From: Levilactobacillus parabrevis ATCC 53295
GTDB taxonomy: Bacteria > Bacillota > Bacilli > Lactobacillales > Lactobacillaceae
Length of the DNA stretch: 64,000 nucleotides
Direction of reading: 5' to 3'
Assembly: GCF_001434055.1 (NCBI RefSeq)
Contig: NZ_AZCZ01000013.1
Span: forward strand, 1 to 64,000
Shown: positions 11,139-18,592 of the stretch, in pieces
Layout: each line of letters begins with the position of its first letter
Numbering within the stretch: the stretch's first letter is position 1
Position numbers and translations under genes: made by a program
Notes under the pieces: generated by a model
Told to the model about the DNA's origin: nothing
Seen by the model: the letters and a program-made list of their open reading frames with translations, nothing else
Database searches by the model: none

Positions 11139-12030
11139 TAGTATCCAGCCCCCGTTTCAAAATATGCTTGAAGTTAAACGTCTTCTTGAAGACTGGCAAC
11201 ATCATGCAAAGTGCCAAGATGATGGAAGATAACAGGTTAAGATCGTTGGCGCTGAAGCCCAATTTGAGGACAATCAGCAGGACGAAGCGGTAGAGGATAC
11301 TCCCGAGGGAGACCGCTACCAGTCGTTGATTCAGCGTTAAATCACCGAAGGCCACTTCCCCAATGATGATGGAGGCGAGGGCAATCACGATGATTCCAAT
11401 CCCCATGTTAACGTCGGCATACCCGTTGTTTTGGGCAACCAGTGCGCCCCCAAAGGCAATCATACCATTGGAGACCATTAGGCCCATGATCTTCATGTTA
11501 TCCGTGTTGATTCCAAGGGAGCGGGCCATCGTCTGGTTATCTCCGGTAGCGATGAAGCCTTGGCCCAGTTGCGTTTGCAGGAAGTAGATGACAAGTCCCG
11601 TGATGATGACCATGACCAGCGTGCCTAGAAAGACACTGTCAAAGTATTGGGGCAAGGAGGCGAGAAAGTGGTTCTTAAATAATGTGGATTTTCCCAGTAA
11701 GGAAACGTTGGCCCGACCCATGATCCGTAAGTTGACGGAGTAGCAGGCGGTCATGACCAGGATTCCGGCCAGTAATATTGGAATATGACCCTTGGTGTAG
11801 AGCAACCCAGTAATCAGGCCGGCAATGGCACCAATGGCGAAGGCCAGGAGTGTTGCCAGTAGGGGATTCATCCCGTTACTGATGGCGGCGACCGCGGTGG
11901 CCGCACCCAGTGGGAACGTCCCTTCAACGGTCATATCGGCAAAGTCGAGAATTCTAAAGGTGAGGAACAACCCTACACCCAGGACGGCCCACAGCAGGCC
12001 CTGTCCAATAGCAGATACAATTAAACTCAT
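11131..12030 (-). CDS. trpY: ABC transporter permease, TrpY-type (importer 1)
   Basis: 299 aa, eight to nine hydrophobic segments, of the branched-chain-like permease fold used by TrpXYZ systems (GLFLTFRILDFADMTVEG at the start is characteristic). The start overlaps the SBP stop (TAATG). It forms the membrane channel of importer 1. It aligns along most of its length with 16924-17892. Confidence 0.9.
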   Translation of the reverse strand: MSLIVSAIGQGLLWAVLGVGLFLTFRILDFADMTVEGTFPLGAATAVAAISNGMNPLLATLLAFAIGAIAGLITGLLYTKGHIPILLAGILVMTACYSVNLRIMGRANVSLLGKSTLFKNHFLASLPQYFDSVFLGTLVMVIITGLVIYFLQTQLGQGFIATGDNQTMARSLGINTDNMKIMGLMVSNGMIAFGGALVAQNNGYADVNMGIGIIVIALASIIIGEVAFGDLTLNQRLVAVSLGSILYRFVLLIVLKLGFSANDLNLLSSIILALCMMLPVFKKTFNFKHILKRGLDTND

Positions 12031-13025
12031 TAGCGGTATACCTCCCCGTGTTGTTTGGCTTCCTTAACGACCGAGTCCGGCAGGGTAATCCCTAGCTTCT
12101 GTGCGGTCTTCAGATTGATGGTCATTTCACCCTTACGTACGAAGTGAATTGGCGTATCGGCGGGCTTCTTGCCCTTTAAAATAGCGGCGGTCATCTTACC
12201 CGTGGTCACGCCCAACTTGTATTGGTTGATGCTCAACGTGGCGAGTCCACCAGCCTTGACCATGGTGTCGACGGCTGGGAAGACGGGTACCTTTTTCGCA
12301 GTAGCCGTGGCGACCAGCGTTTGCATGGCGCTCGCAACGGTGTTATCGGTCGGCACGTAGACGGCGTCGACCTGACTCACCATTTCCTGGCTGACCTGGT
12401 TCAAGTCGTTGGTGTTGGCGATGGAGTAAGCCTTTAGGTCAACGTGTTCCTTCTTGCAAAGGGCGGCGAACTGGTGATACTGGGCCGTTGCCGAGTCATC
12501 AGACGAGGTGTAAATGATCCCCAGCGTCTTCATGTTGGGCATGATCTTCTGGATCAATTTGAGTTGCGCAGCCAGTGGCGCTTGGTCGGAGACCCCGGTG
12601 ACATTGTTGCCAGGGTGATTGTTGTTCTTAACCAGATGAGCACCCTCAGGATCGGTGATGGCCCCCAGAACGACGGGGGTGGTGGAACTGGCGTTAGCCA
12701 ATGCCTGAGCGGCCGGTGTGGCAATTCCAATCATGGCGTCGGCGTCTTCGTTGACGAAGCGTGCGCTCATGGTTTTCAGATTACTCTGGTCGTTTTCGGC
12801 GTTTTGAAAATCAATCTTGATGTTCTTACCCACGTGATAGCCCTCTTCGGCTAGCCCGTGGATGATGCCCTTATGAATGGCATCTAGCGCAGGGTGGGAA
12901 AGCAATTGGAGAATTCCGACAGTGGGAACCTCTTTGGTGGTCGCCGCTTCCTTGTGGCTTTCGCTAACAAAGGCGAAGCCGAGAAAAACCACGAGGATGG
13001 CGATGAGTCCGTATAGTCGTTTCAT
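12030..13025 (-). CDS. trpX: ABC transporter substrate-binding protein, TrpX-type (importer 1)
   Basis: 331 aa. Uncleaved-looking N-terminal hydrophobic anchor (residues 4-20) without a lipobox Cys, unlike its paralogue at 15933. The periplasmic-binding fold follows, with VGILQLLSHPALDAI, the GIATPAAQALA segment and VYVPTDNTVASA that mark the TrpX (DUF534) family. Family members bind tryptophan in streptococci. First gene of a trpXYZ-like operon, preceded by a leader peptide with a Trp codon, terminators and two C-elements. The start is ATG with GAGGTTG about 11 nt upstream. Confidence 0.9.
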   Translation of the reverse strand: MKRLYGLIAILVVFLGFAFVSESHKEAATTKEVPTVGILQLLSHPALDAIHKGIIHGLAEEGYHVGKNIKIDFQNAENDQSNLKTMSARFVNEDADAMIGIATPAAQALANASSTTPVVLGAITDPEGAHLVKNNNHPGNNVTGVSDQAPLAAQLKLIQKIMPNMKTLGIIYTSSDDSATAQYHQFAALCKKEHVDLKAYSIANTNDLNQVSQEMVSQVDAVYVPTDNTVASAMQTLVATATAKKVPVFPAVDTMVKAGGLATLSINQYKLGVTTGKMTAAILKGKKPADTPIHFVRKGEMTINLKTAQKLGITLPDSVVKEAKQHGEVYR

Positions 13026-13557: not shown

Positions 13558-13718
13558 CAAAAAAAGAGCACCCAGTCCGGCTGGGTGCCCAAGAAAAAGG
13601 CCCGCATTGCCGGATAGAAGACATCCGTGCGGGCTATTGCATCAGAAAGTTAGCCGGCGCAGATGCGAAAATCGCTCTGGGAGCTCAAGTCGCATCTACA
13701 GCGATGACGACTTGATTA
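13558..13718 (-). promoter_or_regulatory. Trp-type attenuator: alternative hairpins and two terminators
   Basis: Minus strand. Hairpin a:b is TCAAGTCG (13715-13708) with CGACTTGA (13692-13685). Mutually exclusive b:c is AGATGCGA (13697-13690) with TCGCATCT (13668-13661). The terminator GCCCGCACGGAT/ATCCG..TGCGGGC plus T5 lies at 13634-13594. A second terminator GCACCCAG/CTGGGTGC plus T7 lies at 13588-13558. Region c can also pair with the 3' arm of the first terminator (GCAT..GCCGG with CCGGC..ATGC), a plausible antiterminator. Confidence 0.65.
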
Positions 13719-13763
13719 CCGGCTTTGCCAACGTCCATTAAGTTGAATGCTAGACATTTGCAT
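13716..13763 (-). CDS. 15-aa leader peptide with a Trp codon (importer 1)
   Basis: ATG at 13763-13761 behind GGAAGGAAGGAAAG; the peptide is MQMSSIQLNGRWQSR. The single Trp (TGG, 13730-13728) is four codons before the TAA. A ribosome waiting at this codon would leave hairpin segment a free, whereas one at the stop codon would cover it. This placement, a strong promoter 37 nt upstream and terminators downstream argue for a regulatory leader. Only one Trp codon is present, so the amino acid sensed is an inference. Confidence 0.6.
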   Translation of the reverse strand: MQMSSIQLNGRWQSR

Positions 13764-14368: not shown

Positions 14369-15256
14369 ATGAAAATAGCAGTTATGACCGATACTTCGGC
14401 CGGCATCGACTTTGCCGAAGCCGACCAGCGCCACATCACTTTGTTGCCGGCACCAATAATGTTTGGTAACCGCCAATACCACGAATATAAAGACCTCTCA
14501 ACAGCGGATTACTATCGGTTAATGCGATTGGCGAAGACCAAGAAAGTGGTGCCGACCGCACCTCAGCTCTCGATGAAGACGATTGAAGCGGCCTGCCACG
14601 GCTTGGTCAAGCAGGGCTACACCGACGTGATCATCGTGGGCCCGTCACTGGGAATCTCCGGTTTCGTGAATACGTTGGCGGCGTTTGCCGAAAGTATCGA
14701 GGCCATTCATGTGTGGCCATGGGATTCACGCGGTATCTTAACCGTCATGGGCGATCAAGTCCGATTAGCGGCGGAGTTGGTTAACCGCGGTGCCACGGTC
14801 GATGAAGTTTTTAGTCAGCTGACTTTATTACGGCAGACGATTCACAGCGTTTTCGTGGTGGACTCGATCAAGCCGCTGCTGCGAACGGGGGAAGTCAACC
14901 CGACTGGTCCCGGCAGTACGCCACTACACGCGGGCAAGCCGATCTTGAGTTTTGAACCGTCCGGTAAGATGCGGTATGCCGGCAGTACTTTGCGGTGGCG
15001 TGGAGCCCGCGGAGACTTTCTCGACGATCTTGCGGTGGACTTGGCCGCAACGTATCCAGTCAGGGCCACTATTTTAAATGCGGACCAACCCGAGGCAACA
15101 TCTCGGTGGTTGGCGGCCGCACAGGAACGGTTCCCCACAGTGAAATTTGATGTGGCGTTGATTGGTCCTAGCTTCGGTGTGCACGTGGGGGATGGCGCGA
15201 TGGGAATGGCGTGGTCACAGGATTTTCAGAGCTTGATTCCTGATAATGAGAAATAG
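14369..15256 (+). CDS. DegV family (fatty-acid-binding) protein
   Basis: 295 aa. It opens with MKIAVMTDTSAGID, the usual DegV start, and keeps the TAPQLS loop and VIIVGPSLGISGF. DegV/FakB proteins bind an acyl chain and present it to the kinase FakA for phosphorylation. Start taken as ATG at 14369, 12 nt after AAGGAGG; a TTG 12 nt further upstream would sit on the ribosome site. It sits between the two ABC importers but is probably transcribed alone. Confidence 0.85.
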   Translation: MKIAVMTDTSAGIDFAEADQRHITLLPAPIMFGNRQYHEYKDLSTADYYRLMRLAKTKKVVPTAPQLSMKTIEAACHGLVKQGYTDVIIVGPSLGISGFVNTLAAFAESIEAIHVWPWDSRGILTVMGDQVRLAAELVNRGATVDEVFSQLTLLRQTIHSVFVVDSIKPLLRTGEVNPTGPGSTPLHAGKPILSFEPSGKMRYAGSTLRWRGARGDFLDDLAVDLAATYPVRATILNADQPEATSRWLAAAQERFPTVKFDVALIGPSFGVHVGDGAMGMAWSQDFQSLIPDNEK

Positions 15257-15271
15257 ATTAGAAATTTAGGG

Positions 15272-15300
15272 TTGACACCGATATTTTTTAATGGTTAACT
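15272..15300 (+). promoter_or_regulatory. sigma-A promoter of the importer 2 leader
   Basis: -35 TTGACA (15272-15277), 17-bp spacer, -10 TTAACT (15295-15300). Begins 16 bp after the degV stop codon, giving importer 2 its own leader transcript. Confidence 0.8.
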
Positions 15301-15337
15301 AGTAATTGTAAATTGATAAATGAAAGGAACTTCACTC

Positions 15338-15400
15338 ATGAAGCAAAATAACCTCACTCATTTGAATAGCCAATTTGCCTTTAGCTTCTTCTTTAGATAG
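15338..15400 (+). CDS. 20-aa Phe-rich leader peptide (importer 2)
   Basis: ATG at 15338 behind GAAAGGAAC; the peptide begins MKQNNLTHLNSQ and ends FAFSFFFR before TAG. Five of its last eight residues are Phe, the hallmark of leader peptides of Phe-controlled attenuators. The stop codon overlaps the first of seven alternately pairing RNA segments, and a strong terminator lies 145 nt downstream. No function other than regulation is expected. Confidence 0.85.
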   Translation: MKQNNLTHLNSQFAFSFFFR

Positions 15401-15584
15401 CGTTTGTATTCAGCATCCTTGGATACGAACGCGCCGCTCAATTGCGTTCGTATCTATCGATAAGCTAAAGTTTTTCAACATGACTTAAGCGCCAGATAGA
15501 TACGGGTATAATCTATCTGGAGAAATAATATCGGGCCCGATAACACCAGGTAGATTCTACTTAGAATCTGTCTGGTGTTTTTTT
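15400..15584 (+). promoter_or_regulatory. Phe-type ribosome-mediated attenuator with a seven-segment pairing relay
   Basis: Segments: 1 GCGTTTGTAT (15400-15409); 2 GATACGAACGC (15422-15432); 3 GCGTTCGTATCTATC (15444-15458); 4 CCAGATAGATAC (15492-15503); 5 ATCTATCTGG (15511-15520); 6 CCAGGTAGAT (15546-15555); 7 ATCTGTCTGG (15566-15575, then T tract). Neighbouring segments are complementary: 1:2, 2:3 (11 bp perfect), 3:4 (9 bp), 4:5 (10 bp), 5:6 (10 bp with one G-U), 6:7 terminator. A ribosome stalled at Phe codons leaves segment 1 free, giving 1:2, 3:4, 5:6 and readthrough. A ribosome at the stop masks 1, giving 2:3, 4:5, 6:7 and termination. Confidence 0.8.
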
Positions 15585-15588
15585 GTTT

Positions 15589-15710
15589 AGAGCGTGAAGG
15601 CGGGCGGTAGGTCCTGAGCATTAACGTAGCTAAGTGCCCGCTCGGTGGAACCGAGCCGGTGCTTAGCTGGGTTAAGCGCAGGGACCTGCCCGACTGAACG
15701 CGTTTCAGAA
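15589..15710 (+). ncRNA. C-element copy 3, structured RNA candidate upstream of importer 2
   Basis: Starts 5 nt after the attenuator T tract. Helices GCGT/ACGC, CGGGC/GCCCG and AGGTCCTG/CAGGGACCT flank the conserved loops CATTAACGT and GGGTTAA. The apical helix is AGCTAAGTGC/GTGCTTAGCT. Helix sequences differ from the two minus-strand copies, but pairing and loops are the same. The 3' tail continues into a further AGAAGC/GCTTCT hairpin (15707-15777). Confidence 0.7.
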
Positions 15711-15932
15711 GCAGCCAGGACCGACAAAGCGGACGCGCTGAGCCAGTCCAAGGCTTACCAGCTTCTAAACAGTCAGTTGATCTAATCCGTGGGCGGAATT
15801 TATCAGCACTACCGGTAAATTCCAGTATCATTTATCAACTAAATCCAAACATTTCTGATAACTATTAACACATACAAAAGCGCCACCACAACGGTCAGCA
15901 CGGCTGGCCAACATACCTGGAGGGAATCGATT

Positions 15933-16904
15933 ATGAAAAAATTATTACTGACGAGCATTGCATTATTAGGATTGGGCTTAACATTAGCGGGCTGCTCCAG
16001 CAAGTCCGATGCTAGCAGCAAGAGCACCTTGAACGTGGGGATCTTACAGGTTGTGCAACACGGTTCGCTCGATGAGGCGCGGCAAGGATTCAAGGCCGGT
16101 TTGAAGCAAGAACTCAAGACCCATCACAAGTCCGTGACCGTAAAATATCACTACTTAAATGCGCAGGGGGACCAAGCCAATTTAAATACGATGAGCCAAC
16201 AATTGGTCCAACAAAAGAATGATTTACTGTTAGGTATCGCAACGCCAGCCGCTCAAGCACTGGCCAAGAAGACCAAGACCACGCCAACGTTAGTCACGGC
16301 CGTCACGGATCTGAAGTCAGCCGGGTTGGTCAAATCCAACAGCAAGCCACAGACCAACGTCAGTGGGACCAGTGATTTGACGCCGGTTGGTTTACAACTG
16401 AAGCTGTTGGCTAGTATGAGCAAGGGTAACAAGCCTCTCGGTATCATGTACAACTCTTCCGAAGAGAACTCCGTATTGCAAGTCAACTTGGCCAAAGCAT
16501 ACGCCAAGAAGCACCACATCAACGTCAAAGTCGTCAGTGCTACTAGCACCAACGATGTGACCAGCGTGCTGGCCGGCTTAGAGGGTAAGATTTCCGGCCT
16601 GTACCTGCCAACCGATAACCTGATGGCTAGTGCGATGAAGACCATCGGCCAAAAGGCTAAGGCCGCTAAATTACCCGTTGTGACCGGCTCGATTGAAATG
16701 GCGCAAGACGGTGGGACCGCAACTTACGGCATCAACTACTACGACTTGGGGAAGCAAACCGGGAAGATGGCTTACGCCGCACTGGAAAACAACAAGAAGC
16801 CCCAAACGACGGCCGTTCAAACCTCAAAGAAGCTTCACATGTACATCAACAAGGCCAATGCTAAGGCAATTGGCTTGAAGACCAGTCAGATTCAAGAACC
16901 GTAG
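15933..16904 (+). CDS. ABC transporter substrate-binding lipoprotein, TrpX-type (importer 2)
   Basis: 323 aa. Signal peptide with lipobox LTLAGC (Cys21), so a membrane-anchored lipoprotein. The mature part is of the TrpX (DUF534) family: VGILQVVQHGSLDEA, GIATPAAQALA and LYLPTDNLMASA parallel importer 1. CTGGAGGGA precedes the ATG. First structural gene of a three-gene operon whose leader peptide is Phe-rich, so phenylalanine or another aromatic ligand is a better guess than tryptophan; not provable here. Confidence 0.9.
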   Translation: MKKLLLTSIALLGLGLTLAGCSSKSDASSKSTLNVGILQVVQHGSLDEARQGFKAGLKQELKTHHKSVTVKYHYLNAQGDQANLNTMSQQLVQQKNDLLLGIATPAAQALAKKTKTTPTLVTAVTDLKSAGLVKSNSKPQTNVSGTSDLTPVGLQLKLLASMSKGNKPLGIMYNSSEENSVLQVNLAKAYAKKHHINVKVVSATSTNDVTSVLAGLEGKISGLYLPTDNLMASAMKTIGQKAKAAKLPVVTGSIEMAQDGGTATYGINYYDLGKQTGKMAYAALENNKKPQTTAVQTSKKLHMYINKANAKAIGLKTSQIQEP

Positions 16905-16923: not shown

Positions 16924-17892
16924 ATGTTAATCACTAGTATTGGCCAGGGCCTACTCTGGGCGCCACTCGCTATCGGCGTATTCATTACATTTCGTATTTT
17001 AGATATTCCCGATTTGACCACAGAGGGGAGCTTTCCCCTTGGCGCGGCCGTGACGGTCAGTGCGATGGTTAGCGGCCAATCTGCACTAGTGGCCAGTCTG
17101 TTAGGCTTCCTGGCTGGTTGTCTGGCCGGGTGGGTGACCGGCGTGTTGGACACCAAGCTGCGGATGCCTTCACTACTTGCTGGGATTTTGACAATGACCG
17201 GGTTGTACTCGATCAACATGCACGTGATGGGGAAATCCAACGTGCCCCTGTTGAATCAGCGGGTGTTGACCAGTTACCTGCCGGCTACATGGTCCGTTGA
17301 TTTACAAACGATTATCGTGGGTGCCGTCATTACCGGGGTAGTCATGGCAGCCTTGATTTGGCTGTTCAAGACCCGGCTCGGATTGTCCCTGATGGCGACC
17401 GGAAATAATTCGGCAATGAGTGCGGCCAACGGCATCTATACCGACCGAATGGTGATTATCGGTTACATGGTCTCTAACGGTTGCATTGCCTTGTCGGGGG
17501 CTTTGATCGCCCAGAGCAATGGGTACGCCGACATTGGCATGGGAATCGGCACGATCGTGATTGGGCTGGCCTCAGTCCTCGTGGGGGAGATCTTCCTCCG
17601 CGGTCGGCAAATGTGGGTGCGGCTGACCGCCATGGTCGTTGGGGCCATCATTTACCGGTTCCTATTGACCGTCGCCATGGGCTTAGGTTTCCCAGTCGAC
17701 GATCTGAAAATTCTTTCCGCAGGCATCTTGGTCGTTGTGATCTGCCTGCCACTGATTCGCAATAAATACCAGACGAAGCAACAGTTGAAACGTTATCTCA
17801 CACAGATTGGAGTCGATTCGCATGCTACAGCAAACAGCAGTCTTAGGCGTCAAGCACCTTCAGAAGGTCTTCTTTCCCGGGACGGCAAATGA
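16924..17892 (+). CDS. ABC transporter permease, TrpY-type (importer 2)
   Basis: 322 aa with eight to nine hydrophobic segments; the GVFITFRILDIPDLTTEG start parallels importer 1. The last 24 residues, after LTQIGVDSH, read through the ATPase start and have no counterpart in importer 1's permease, which stops 8 nt into its ATPase gene. So the stop codon here has probably been lost and the tail is junk-like (NSSLRRQAPSEGLL). AAGGGAGA ribosome site. Confidence 0.9.
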   Translation: MLITSIGQGLLWAPLAIGVFITFRILDIPDLTTEGSFPLGAAVTVSAMVSGQSALVASLLGFLAGCLAGWVTGVLDTKLRMPSLLAGILTMTGLYSINMHVMGKSNVPLLNQRVLTSYLPATWSVDLQTIIVGAVITGVVMAALIWLFKTRLGLSLMATGNNSAMSAANGIYTDRMVIIGYMVSNGCIALSGALIAQSNGYADIGMGIGTIVIGLASVLVGEIFLRGRQMWVRLTAMVVGAIIYRFLLTVAMGLGFPVDDLKILSAGILVVVICLPLIRNKYQTKQQLKRYLTQIGVDSHATANSSLRRQAPSEGLLSRDGK

Positions 17893-18592
17893 GCGCCACG
17901 TTTTAAAGGACGTCAGTCTCACGATTGAACCTGGCGATTTCGTCTCCGTCATTGGGAATAACGGGGCGGGGAAGTCCACGCTGCTCAATACGATTGCGGG
18001 CACACTGACGGCCGATGCCGGAGAACTCACTTTGGCGGGGCACCGCATCACGCGCAAGCCAATTGCCTACCGATCACGTTGGTTATCACGGGTCTTCCAG
18101 GATCCTAAGATGGGGACGGCGGGGGAACTAAGCGTTGCGGAAAACTTAACGTTGGCGGCGAAGCATACGGGGAGCATGAGCCTTCACCGTTACCGTCATC
18201 GCGGCCAGACCGAAGCATATCAAGAGTTGTTGCGGCCACTGGATATGGGATTAGAGAATCGGTTGACGACGCAGGTGAAGTATTTATCTGGTGGGCAGCG
18301 TCAAGCACTCTCCCTGTTGATGGCAACGCTGAGCCAACCCCAACTGTTGTTGCTAGATGAACATACGGCGGCGCTGGATCCCCAGACGAGCCGCAAGGTC
18401 ATGGACTTGACGCAAACTATCGTGGCAGAAAACCAATTAACCACGATGATGATCACCCACAAAATGAGTGATGCGTTGACCTATGGTAATCGGTTAGTCA
18501 TGGTTCAAGACGGTCAGATCAAGCTCGACGTCCGTGGCGAAGAGAAACAAAACTTACGGCAGGAAGACCTGTTGTCGATGTTTGTGGAGTAA
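17822..18592 (+). CDS. ABC transporter ATPase, TrpZ-type (importer 2)
   Basis: 256 aa from ATG 17822, placed 10 nt after GGAG inside the permease gene; an upstream TTG at 17807 has no ribosome site. Walker A GNNGAGKST, signature LSGGQRQA, Walker B LLLLDEHTAALDP. Overlaps the permease by 71 nt, much more than in importer 1. An A-type repeat starts 29 bp after the stop. Confidence 0.9.
   Translation: MLQQTAVLGVKHLQKVFFPGTANERHVLKDVSLTIEPGDFVSVIGNNGAGKSTLLNTIAGTLTADAGELTLAGHRITRKPIAYRSRWLSRVFQDPKMGTAGELSVAENLTLAAKHTGSMSLHRYRHRGQTEAYQELLRPLDMGLENRLTTQVKYLSGGQRQALSLLMATLSQPQLLLLDEHTAALDPQTSRKVMDLTQTIVAENQLTTMMITHKMSDALTYGNRLVMVQDGQIKLDVRGEEKQNLRQEDLLSMFVE

Follow-up and report, generated by a model that had tools for sequence, protein, structure and literature searches.

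Within the window, a 64,000-nt stretch of Levilactobacillus parabrevis ATCC 53295 DNA, a short ORF rich in Phe codons and a chain of complementary segments precede an operon on the plus strand. The features of the locus are listed below.

15272..15300, plus strand: promoter of the Phe leader, read from the sequence as TTGACA at 15272 and TTAACT with a 17-nt spacer
15338..15400, plus strand: leader ORF MKQNNLTHLNSQFAFSFFFR, with an ATG start, 20 codons, a TAG stop and Phe at five of the last nine codons
15379..15400, plus strand: segment 0 (coding), the partner of 15455-15470 (3b) by complementarity and family covariation
15400..15413, plus strand: segment 1
15419..15433, plus strand: segment 2
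15443..15470, plus strand: segment 3 (15443-15458) and 3b (15455-15470)
15492..15507, plus strand: segment 4
15510..15520, plus strand: segment 5
15529..15542, plus strand: GGGCCC palindrome TATCGGGCCCGATA between segments 5 and 6
15542..15558, plus strand: segment 6, the 5´ arm of the terminator
15563..15584, plus strand: segment 7, the 3´ arm of the terminator, plus the T tract
15933..16904, plus strand: TrpX-like substrate-binding lipoprotein of a presumed Phe importer (NCBIfam ABC_SBP_TrpX, 309 bits; the cut-off of 390 is not reached)
16924..17892, plus strand: ABC permease
17807..18592, plus strand: ABC ATPase, whose listed ORF start overlaps the end of the permease

The first-pass annotation had placed a promoter, a ribosome site with a 20-codon ORF ending in FAFSFFFR and a stop, and a downstream TrpX-type ABC importer at this locus, and each of these was found. 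The TTGACA element of the promoter is present in 30 of 30 printed Levilactobacillus loci, with TT(A/T)ACT next in each when read by eye; a consensus promoter scan of the window does not give the TTGACA/TTAACT pair at 15272 among its listed sites. The ribosome site, AAAGGAA, ends 8 nt 5´ of the ORF at 15338-15400, and the FAFSFFFR end of the ORF is the same in 29 aligned Levilactobacillus loci (27 distinct) and in a thirtieth, L066. The terminator stem spans 15542-15579 and its T tract runs to 15584; the terminator scan found one terminator-like site against a shuffle mean of 1.0, which by itself is no evidence. The lipoprotein, permease and ATPase genes form the importer, and the nearest solved protein structures by sequence are 3lft and 6hni.

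The T tract and the trpX-like gene are 348 nt apart, and part of this distance (15589-15720) is a genomic repeat. It is an inverted-repeat element on the plus strand between the terminator and the first gene of the operon, and as a query it has 19 matches in its own genome, the window copy included. Rfam miRNA matches at 15601-15692 were rejected because they coincide with the hairpin of this repeat.

A helix-chain search of 15400-15586 revealed six mutually exclusive, overlapping helices, which define seven segments 3´ of the ORF: 1:2 (15400-15413:15419-15432), 2:3 (15420-15433:15443-15456), 3:4 (15446-15458:15495-15507), 4:5 (15492-15501:15511-15520), 5:6 (15510-15520:15546-15556) and 6:7 (15542-15558:15563-15579). 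The gapless chain of six compares with a maximum of three in 500 dinucleotide-preserving shuffles, none of which gave six; the bulge-tolerant test likewise gave six against a maximum of three in 150 shuffles. The seven neighbor-complementary segments annotated earlier, the last pair being a terminator with a T tract, have the right coordinates. That list was incomplete, as it missed an eighth, coding segment (segment 0, 15379-15400), which pairs with 15455-15470.

The GGGCCC core of the palindrome between segments 5 and 6 is present in 27 of 27 distinct Levilactobacillus leaders, and the full 14-nt palindrome in 22 of them. Companilactobacillus and Pediococcus loci retain this core between variable flanks, except for one with GCCCGGGC in its place. 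Among the printed loci of other genera, the palindrome was not seen.

In the proposed mechanism, a shortage of Phe-tRNA would stall the ribosome on the Phe codons and leave segment 1 free; 1:2, 3:4 and 5:6 would then form and RNA polymerase would read through. With ample Phe, the ribosome would reach the stop codon and cover segment 1, and the resulting helices 2:3, 4:5 and 6:7 would end transcription. An untranslated leader of the average family member would pair its coding segment 0 with 3b and form 1:2, which would lead to 4:5 and the terminator.

To model these states, folding was carried out on RNA ending with segment 6, and a ribosome was represented by deleting all nucleotides as far as 12 nt beyond the first position of the A-site codon; the resulting ensembles are equilibrium sketches, not kinetics. 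In the window leader, the pairs predicted with a stall at codon −5 number 11.7 (1:2), 8.0 (3:4) and 10.0 (5:6), whereas those predicted with the ribosome at the stop codon number 10.6 (2:3), 8.9 (4:5) and 1.1 (5:6). The folding of the window leader therefore agrees with the parity originally proposed, in which stalling selects the odd-numbered helices and arrival at the stop codon the even-numbered ones, with 5:6 nearly gone. Termination is not clearly predicted for the untranslated window leader, which lacks 0:3b, forms 3:4 and has an intermediate level of 5:6. The average family member without a ribosome forms 0:3b (12.2 pairs), 1:2 and 4:5, and little 5:6 (2.0), from which untranslated leaders are predicted to terminate. 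For a stall at codon −5, 5:6 gains more than 2 pairs in 29 of 72 relatives and is reduced in three; the corresponding numbers are 24 and four at codon −3, and 11 and four at codon −2. With the first helix locked as a co-transcriptional mimic, 5:6 goes up in 29 of the 72 and down in one, and 3:4 goes up in 43 and down in none. A clean switch is thus predicted for the window leader and a minority of its relatives (29/72).

The leader has relatives across the order. At permissive thresholds, the Rfam family RF02863 ('Enterococcus sRNA 2410') matches 15381-15598 over its full length with 31.9 bits and an E value of 0.0027. This score is below the gathering score of 61, and the window locus is homologous by its full-length match and shared plan without being a member by the Rfam rule; among the 10 family loci scanned, the gathering score is reached by L009 only. 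At E≤0.001, RF02863 matches were found in 214 of the 395 Lactobacillales genomes searched, spread over 52 of 80 genera, and 98 genomes exceeded the Rfam cut-off; 14 control genomes gave no match. A draw of 299 genomes from the class gave 26 with a match, five from outside the order. Both surveys missed the genome of the window itself, and the counts are therefore probably lower bounds. A covariance model (R1) built from 80 of our sequences matched 97 of 251 Lactobacillaceae genomes in 20 of 40 genera, with one match in the genome of the window. By DNA comparison, the leader is present in 32 of 35 Levilactobacillus genomes, and the other three (G346, G395 and G422) gave no DNA match to it. A pattern scan returned 107 stretches, and carriers among the 80 listed include Enterococcus, Tetragenococcus, Companilactobacillus, Pediococcus, Lactiplantibacillus and Levilactobacillus. 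A match in L201, an alphaproteobacterial MAG without such a leader, was rejected as chance.

From these searches, 140 loci were assembled: the 30 best order matches, 30 genus matches and 80 hand-picked from the best-scoring listed matches. In 79 of the 80 picked loci, an ORF with at least four Phe/Tyr in its last 12 residues ends at the element, a count that does not presuppose the codons; L108 has none. A stop could be placed in 138 of the 140 loci (L066 and L108 were dropped, and L066 shows the motif on reading). All 138 have an in-frame start codon, and 130 have a ribosome site of at least four bases. As the motif that places the stop demands aromatic codons at −2, −3 and −5, only −6 and −7 are free counts: codon −6 is Tyr/Phe in 72 of 72 representatives and codon −7 in 62 of 72, through several different codons, and four Tyr/Phe codons occur at −3. 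The stop codon lies three codons beyond the usual end in nine leaders (L080, L088, L094, L095, L098, L107 and L120-L122), in which the RNA plan is kept.

RF02863 shares the leader end, 0:3b, 1:2, 4:5 and the terminator with the window leader; it differs in that it is typed as an sRNA gene in Rfam and its model begins within the leader ORF. It is named after the 195-nt sRNA_2410 of E. faecium, which was seen as two transcripts on Northern blots (PMC5593968), and a stand-alone, trans-acting small RNA would account for that observation. We consider this very unlikely for the family, since all 138 loci in which a stop was placed have a terminator-like hairpin with a T tract (4:5 was the hairpin chosen by the script for L088 and L097), the leader is usually followed by a same-strand importer or aromatic-pathway gene in the loci read (a gene could not be named behind every leader, e.g. 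L142 and L361), and 195 nt is the size expected of a terminated leader. The RNA may have a second role in trans besides its role as a leader.

Conservation of the relay was examined in 72 representatives (loci below 85% identity), with a duplex counted as present at −8 kcal/mol or better. The duplexes occur in 72 (0:3b), 72 (1:2), 70 (2:3), 68 (3:4), 68 (4:5), 67 (5:6) and 72 (6:7) representatives, whereas nine non-neighbor pairs reach this energy in 0 to 6 of the 72. When partners were swapped between loci, the own partner was better in 96% of cases for 6:7, 79% for 5:6, 68% for 1:2 and 62% for both 0:3b and 4:5; own and swapped partners barely differ for 3:4 (55%) and 2:3 (51%), and non-neighbors give 34-48%. 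In the 80-sequence alignment, two-sided changes occur at 9 of 12 pairs of 1:2, 6 of 12 of 2:3, 9 of 11 of 4:5 and 5 of 14 of 0:3b; 4:5 is paired in just 76.7% of alignment cells. By this count 1:2, 2:3 and 4:5 covary; 3:4 is conserved (92.9% paired) and shows compensatory change at 0 of 9 pairs in this alignment.

The first-pass annotation had staked its reading on two properties of orthologous leaders, and both are present. All 30 Levilactobacillus loci have FAFSFFFR, as do those read from Companilactobacillus, Pediococcus and Lactiplantibacillus; more distant relatives have Phe/Tyr. Each helix of the alternating chain is retained in 67 to 72 of the 72 representatives. The Phe-codon conservation is partly imposed by the pairing with 3b; codons −2 and −5 are nearly always TTT, which suggests that pairing constrains those codons too. 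The early remark that a relay this long is unusual still holds for its length, but not as an oddity of one locus, an idea that was dropped after the order-wide RF02863 matches and the duplex counts.

A sister leader lies in the same window on the minus strand.

13716..13763, minus strand: leader ORF MQMSSIQLNGRWQSR with a Trp codon
13559..13715, minus strand: relay of seven segments in the Trp leader, in which 4:5 and 6:7 are both terminators with a T tract, from the bulge-tolerant chain test
12030..13025, minus strand: TrpX proper (NCBIfam, 494 bits, over the cut-off of 390)

The divergent operon with TrpX proper occupies 13025-10368 on the minus strand. Stretches that resemble the 15589-15720 repeat by eye are at about 13545-13275 (minus strand), the equivalent place in this operon. 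The gapless chain test gave two helices for the Trp leader, which 150 of 500 shuffles equalled; the bulge-tolerant test gave six helices, a number reached in none of 150 shuffles (mean 2.7, maximum 5). Folded to the end of segment 6, the Trp leader is predicted to form 1:2, 3:4 and 5:6 with a stall at Trp, 2:3 and 4:5 with the ribosome at the stop codon, and 0:3, 1:2 and 4:5 when untranslated. When the RNA is cut off after segment 5, 4:5 prevails in each of these states, which counts against a clean switch at the first terminator.

The Phe model R1, run at E≤10 with filters off, missed the Trp leader of the window. The kinship of the two leaders is drawn from their shared plan, the QLN motif described below and loci in G805 and G867 that both models match (R1 weakly). 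The Trp leader region was found by DNA in 35 of 35 Levilactobacillus genomes; a second model (R2) matched 85 of 251 Lactobacillaceae genomes in 17 of 40 genera. Of 246 genomes searched across the order, it matched 17, each of them in Lactobacillaceae. All 44 inspected Trp-type loci have Trp in the last nine leader residues, many as RWQSR, a count to be read with the fact that R2 was built on sequences containing the Trp codon and itself favors matches with Trp. Behind 43 of the 44 leaders lies a TrpX-like ORF, and all 43 resemble the minus-strand TrpX more closely than the plus-strand protein.

To relate sensor codons to the genes behind them, 237 leader entries (215 distinct contexts) were collected. 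A TrpX-like binding protein is encoded within 900 nt of 167 of them (145 distinct), the first such ORF being taken. In Lactobacillaceae, tandem importer paralogs that share a stretch of DNA carry different leaders: YYYGYYG or YYYGYFG versus FFAGFFG, FFTGFFG, FFGSFFG or FFFGFFR in L340, L341, L342, L343, L365 and L366, and YYYSY(Y/F) paired with FYFSYFR in L305, L306, L334 and L335. The coding segment pairs better with its own downstream stretch than, on average, with those of the other class for 13 of the 14 Tyr-rich leaders and all 9 Phe-only ones (22/23), at about −22 and −19 kcal/mol versus −14.5 and −11.6 kcal/mol with the other class for Tyr-rich and Phe-only leaders, respectively, the classes being groups of related sequences. 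This fit suggests that the recoding was compensated. On a tree of 87 TrpX-like proteins, the leader classes need 12 changes versus 35.6 with shuffled labels, and none of 200 shuffles was as low; near-copies inflate this clustering, and the Tyr/Phe split still recurs in separate clades.

Family searches identified aromatic-pathway and other genes behind further leaders: shikimate dehydrogenase and DAHP synthase (L069), prephenate dehydratase (L131 and L268, FFFSDFR), DAHP synthase (L264), chorismate synthase (L351), transketolase (L352, YYYYWFFK; L363, RYYWFS), an aminotransferase (L347) and a hydroxyacid dehydrogenase (L368), both behind FYFWYFR, and a sodium symporter (L267, IWYSYRR). By eye only, more aroE, aroB and aroC genes were seen behind leaders, as was a transketolase behind the RYYYFGWFS leader of L271, which is outside the order. 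The sensor codons match the pathway of the gene: Trp codons precede TrpX (43/44), the Phe-only leader of L268 precedes prephenate dehydratase, and the Tyr/Phe/Trp leaders of L352 and L363 precede transketolase.

Three further arrangements were observed. An MFS permease fused to a chorismate mutase domain (L369:645-2114) lies behind a Tyr/Phe leader. In L347, L350 and L368, a leader with Phe, Tyr and Trp codons stands before an aminotransferase (by Pfam in L347) and a D-2-hydroxyacid dehydrogenase (by Pfam in L368), genes expected in aromatic amino-acid breakdown and odd behind a starvation-induced switch. L118, in a genome (G391) with five listed copies, has its leader before aroC-tyrA-aroA-like genes by eye, not aroE.

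Sequence comparison and folding together make it highly probable that the window leader regulates a TrpX-like ABC importer by ribosome-mediated transcription attenuation, with charged tRNA-Phe as the signal, and that it is one of an order-wide family whose sensor codons were recoded for Phe, Tyr, Trp or a mixture of these in keeping with the downstream gene. The leader could instead be a general aromatic or Phe-plus-Tyr sensor, with Phe-only codons in the window by chance and Tyr or translation speed equally important. Mixed Phe/Tyr leaders in 47 of the 87 tree representatives, and the interchange of Phe and Tyr codons at −3, −6 and −7, are consistent with this; however, Tyr-rich and Phe-only leaders split between paralogs of the same stretch (L340-L343, L365 and L366) at several places on the importer tree, and the binding protein of the window lies in a clade of 13 with Phe-only leaders throughout, which renders a general sensor quite improbable.

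A T-box, or another ligand-sensing leader that works without translation, is suggested by an importer of the same kind in S. suis: trpX (trpXYZ) is under Trp T-box control there (PMC9382623). In that system, too, an aromatic amino acid regulates a related importer, but the RNA senses tRNA directly and lacks a leader peptide in that account, whereas both TrpX-type operons of the window have leader ORFs. No Rfam family, T-box RF00230 included, reaches its gathering score in the window, a T-box was found in 0 of 10 family loci scanned, and leader ORFs recur. We therefore regard this alternative as extremely unlikely and retain attenuation by a translating ribosome.

The proteobacterial trp, his and phe leaders combine a leader peptide with sensor codons, alternative helices and an intrinsic terminator, the his leader having six segments, and the window leader is like them in all three features. 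The family differs in its seven segments plus coding segment and in one architecture that is recoded for three amino acids. Within 15200-15960, proteobacterial-type Rfam leader families gave no match at E≤10, and Phe_leader, which we take to be the Rfam name of the proteobacterial pheA attenuator, is absent among the seven Rfam matches at this threshold. Ribosome-mediated attenuation is usually regarded as proteobacterial; Firmicute attenuators (hisS/hisZ, his, ilv-leu and uORFC-13-1) lie outside Proteobacteria and share the ribosome-mediated mechanism proposed for the window leader, and the S. aureus ilv-leu leader is said to be one of them. Panina et al. 2003 reportedly dealt with aromatic regulation in Gram-positives and could bear on the family. 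Excerpts of published work describe ribosome-mediated attenuation in Firmicutes for the hisS/hisZ leaders of bacilli (PMC2965389) and for his operons (PMC9413887), and Acholeplasma uORFC-13-1, which codes for at least one Phe, precedes the DAHP synthase gene aroF (PMC8632094). These systems concern other taxa or amino acids, and the excerpts describe neither relay nor recoding (PMC2965389, PMC9413887, PMC8632094). A description of this leader family was not found in the literature searched, whose coverage mostly excludes subscription papers.

The leader peptides share a further motif. In leaders of the Phe, Tyr and Trp types, (Q)LN mostly precedes the first aromatic residue by 3–4 positions. 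LN is present in 57 of 72 order, 47 of 59 Lactobacillaceae and 28 of 44 Trp-type leaders versus about 12, 12 and 6 expected from shuffled peptides, and its Leu is encoded by five or six different codons per set. Plain hungry-codon attenuation does not need QLN, which may help pausing or be inherited. Nascent-peptide arrest, in which QLN(N) acts in the ribosome exit tunnel instead of, or besides, hungry-codon stalling, would explain why LN is so far above expectation in three leader sets with varied Leu codons, and Trp-type leaders hold just one or two Trp codons. Yet LN is absent from 15 of 72, 12 of 59 and 16 of 44 leaders, occurs in only 2 of 8 leaders of a small set mostly from outside the order, and could owe part of its conservation to common descent, as the Asn codon after Leu hardly varies. 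QLN is retained where the sensor residues change between Phe, Tyr and Trp, a pattern consistent with a signal from tRNA charging. Arrest therefore appears rather unlikely, and hungry-codon stalling is the preferred reading.

The kind of mechanism is already known, Firmicutes included; the family, the length of the relay, the coding guard segment and the recoding for three amino acids appear new. A broader view, which we favor by a small margin over doubt, is that one RNA plan of leader ORF, seven-segment relay and coding guard segment is a recodable sensor of tRNA charging that would serve as the main aromatic regulon of lactic acid bacteria and a few other Bacilli. Its Phe, Tyr, Trp and mixed versions would be matched to importers, shikimate genes, transketolase, aminotransferases and permeases and would assign substrates to TrpX-like importers, with the QLN(N) nascent-chain motif tuning the pause. 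If true, a function would replace the 'sRNA' label across a large order of food, gut and clinical bacteria, in which ribosome-mediated attenuation would run an order-wide Firmicute aromatic regulon. Leader codons alone would predict the substrates of poorly annotated importers, and the natural Phe/Tyr/Trp recodings would be ready tests of attenuator evolution with a coding segment kept base-paired.
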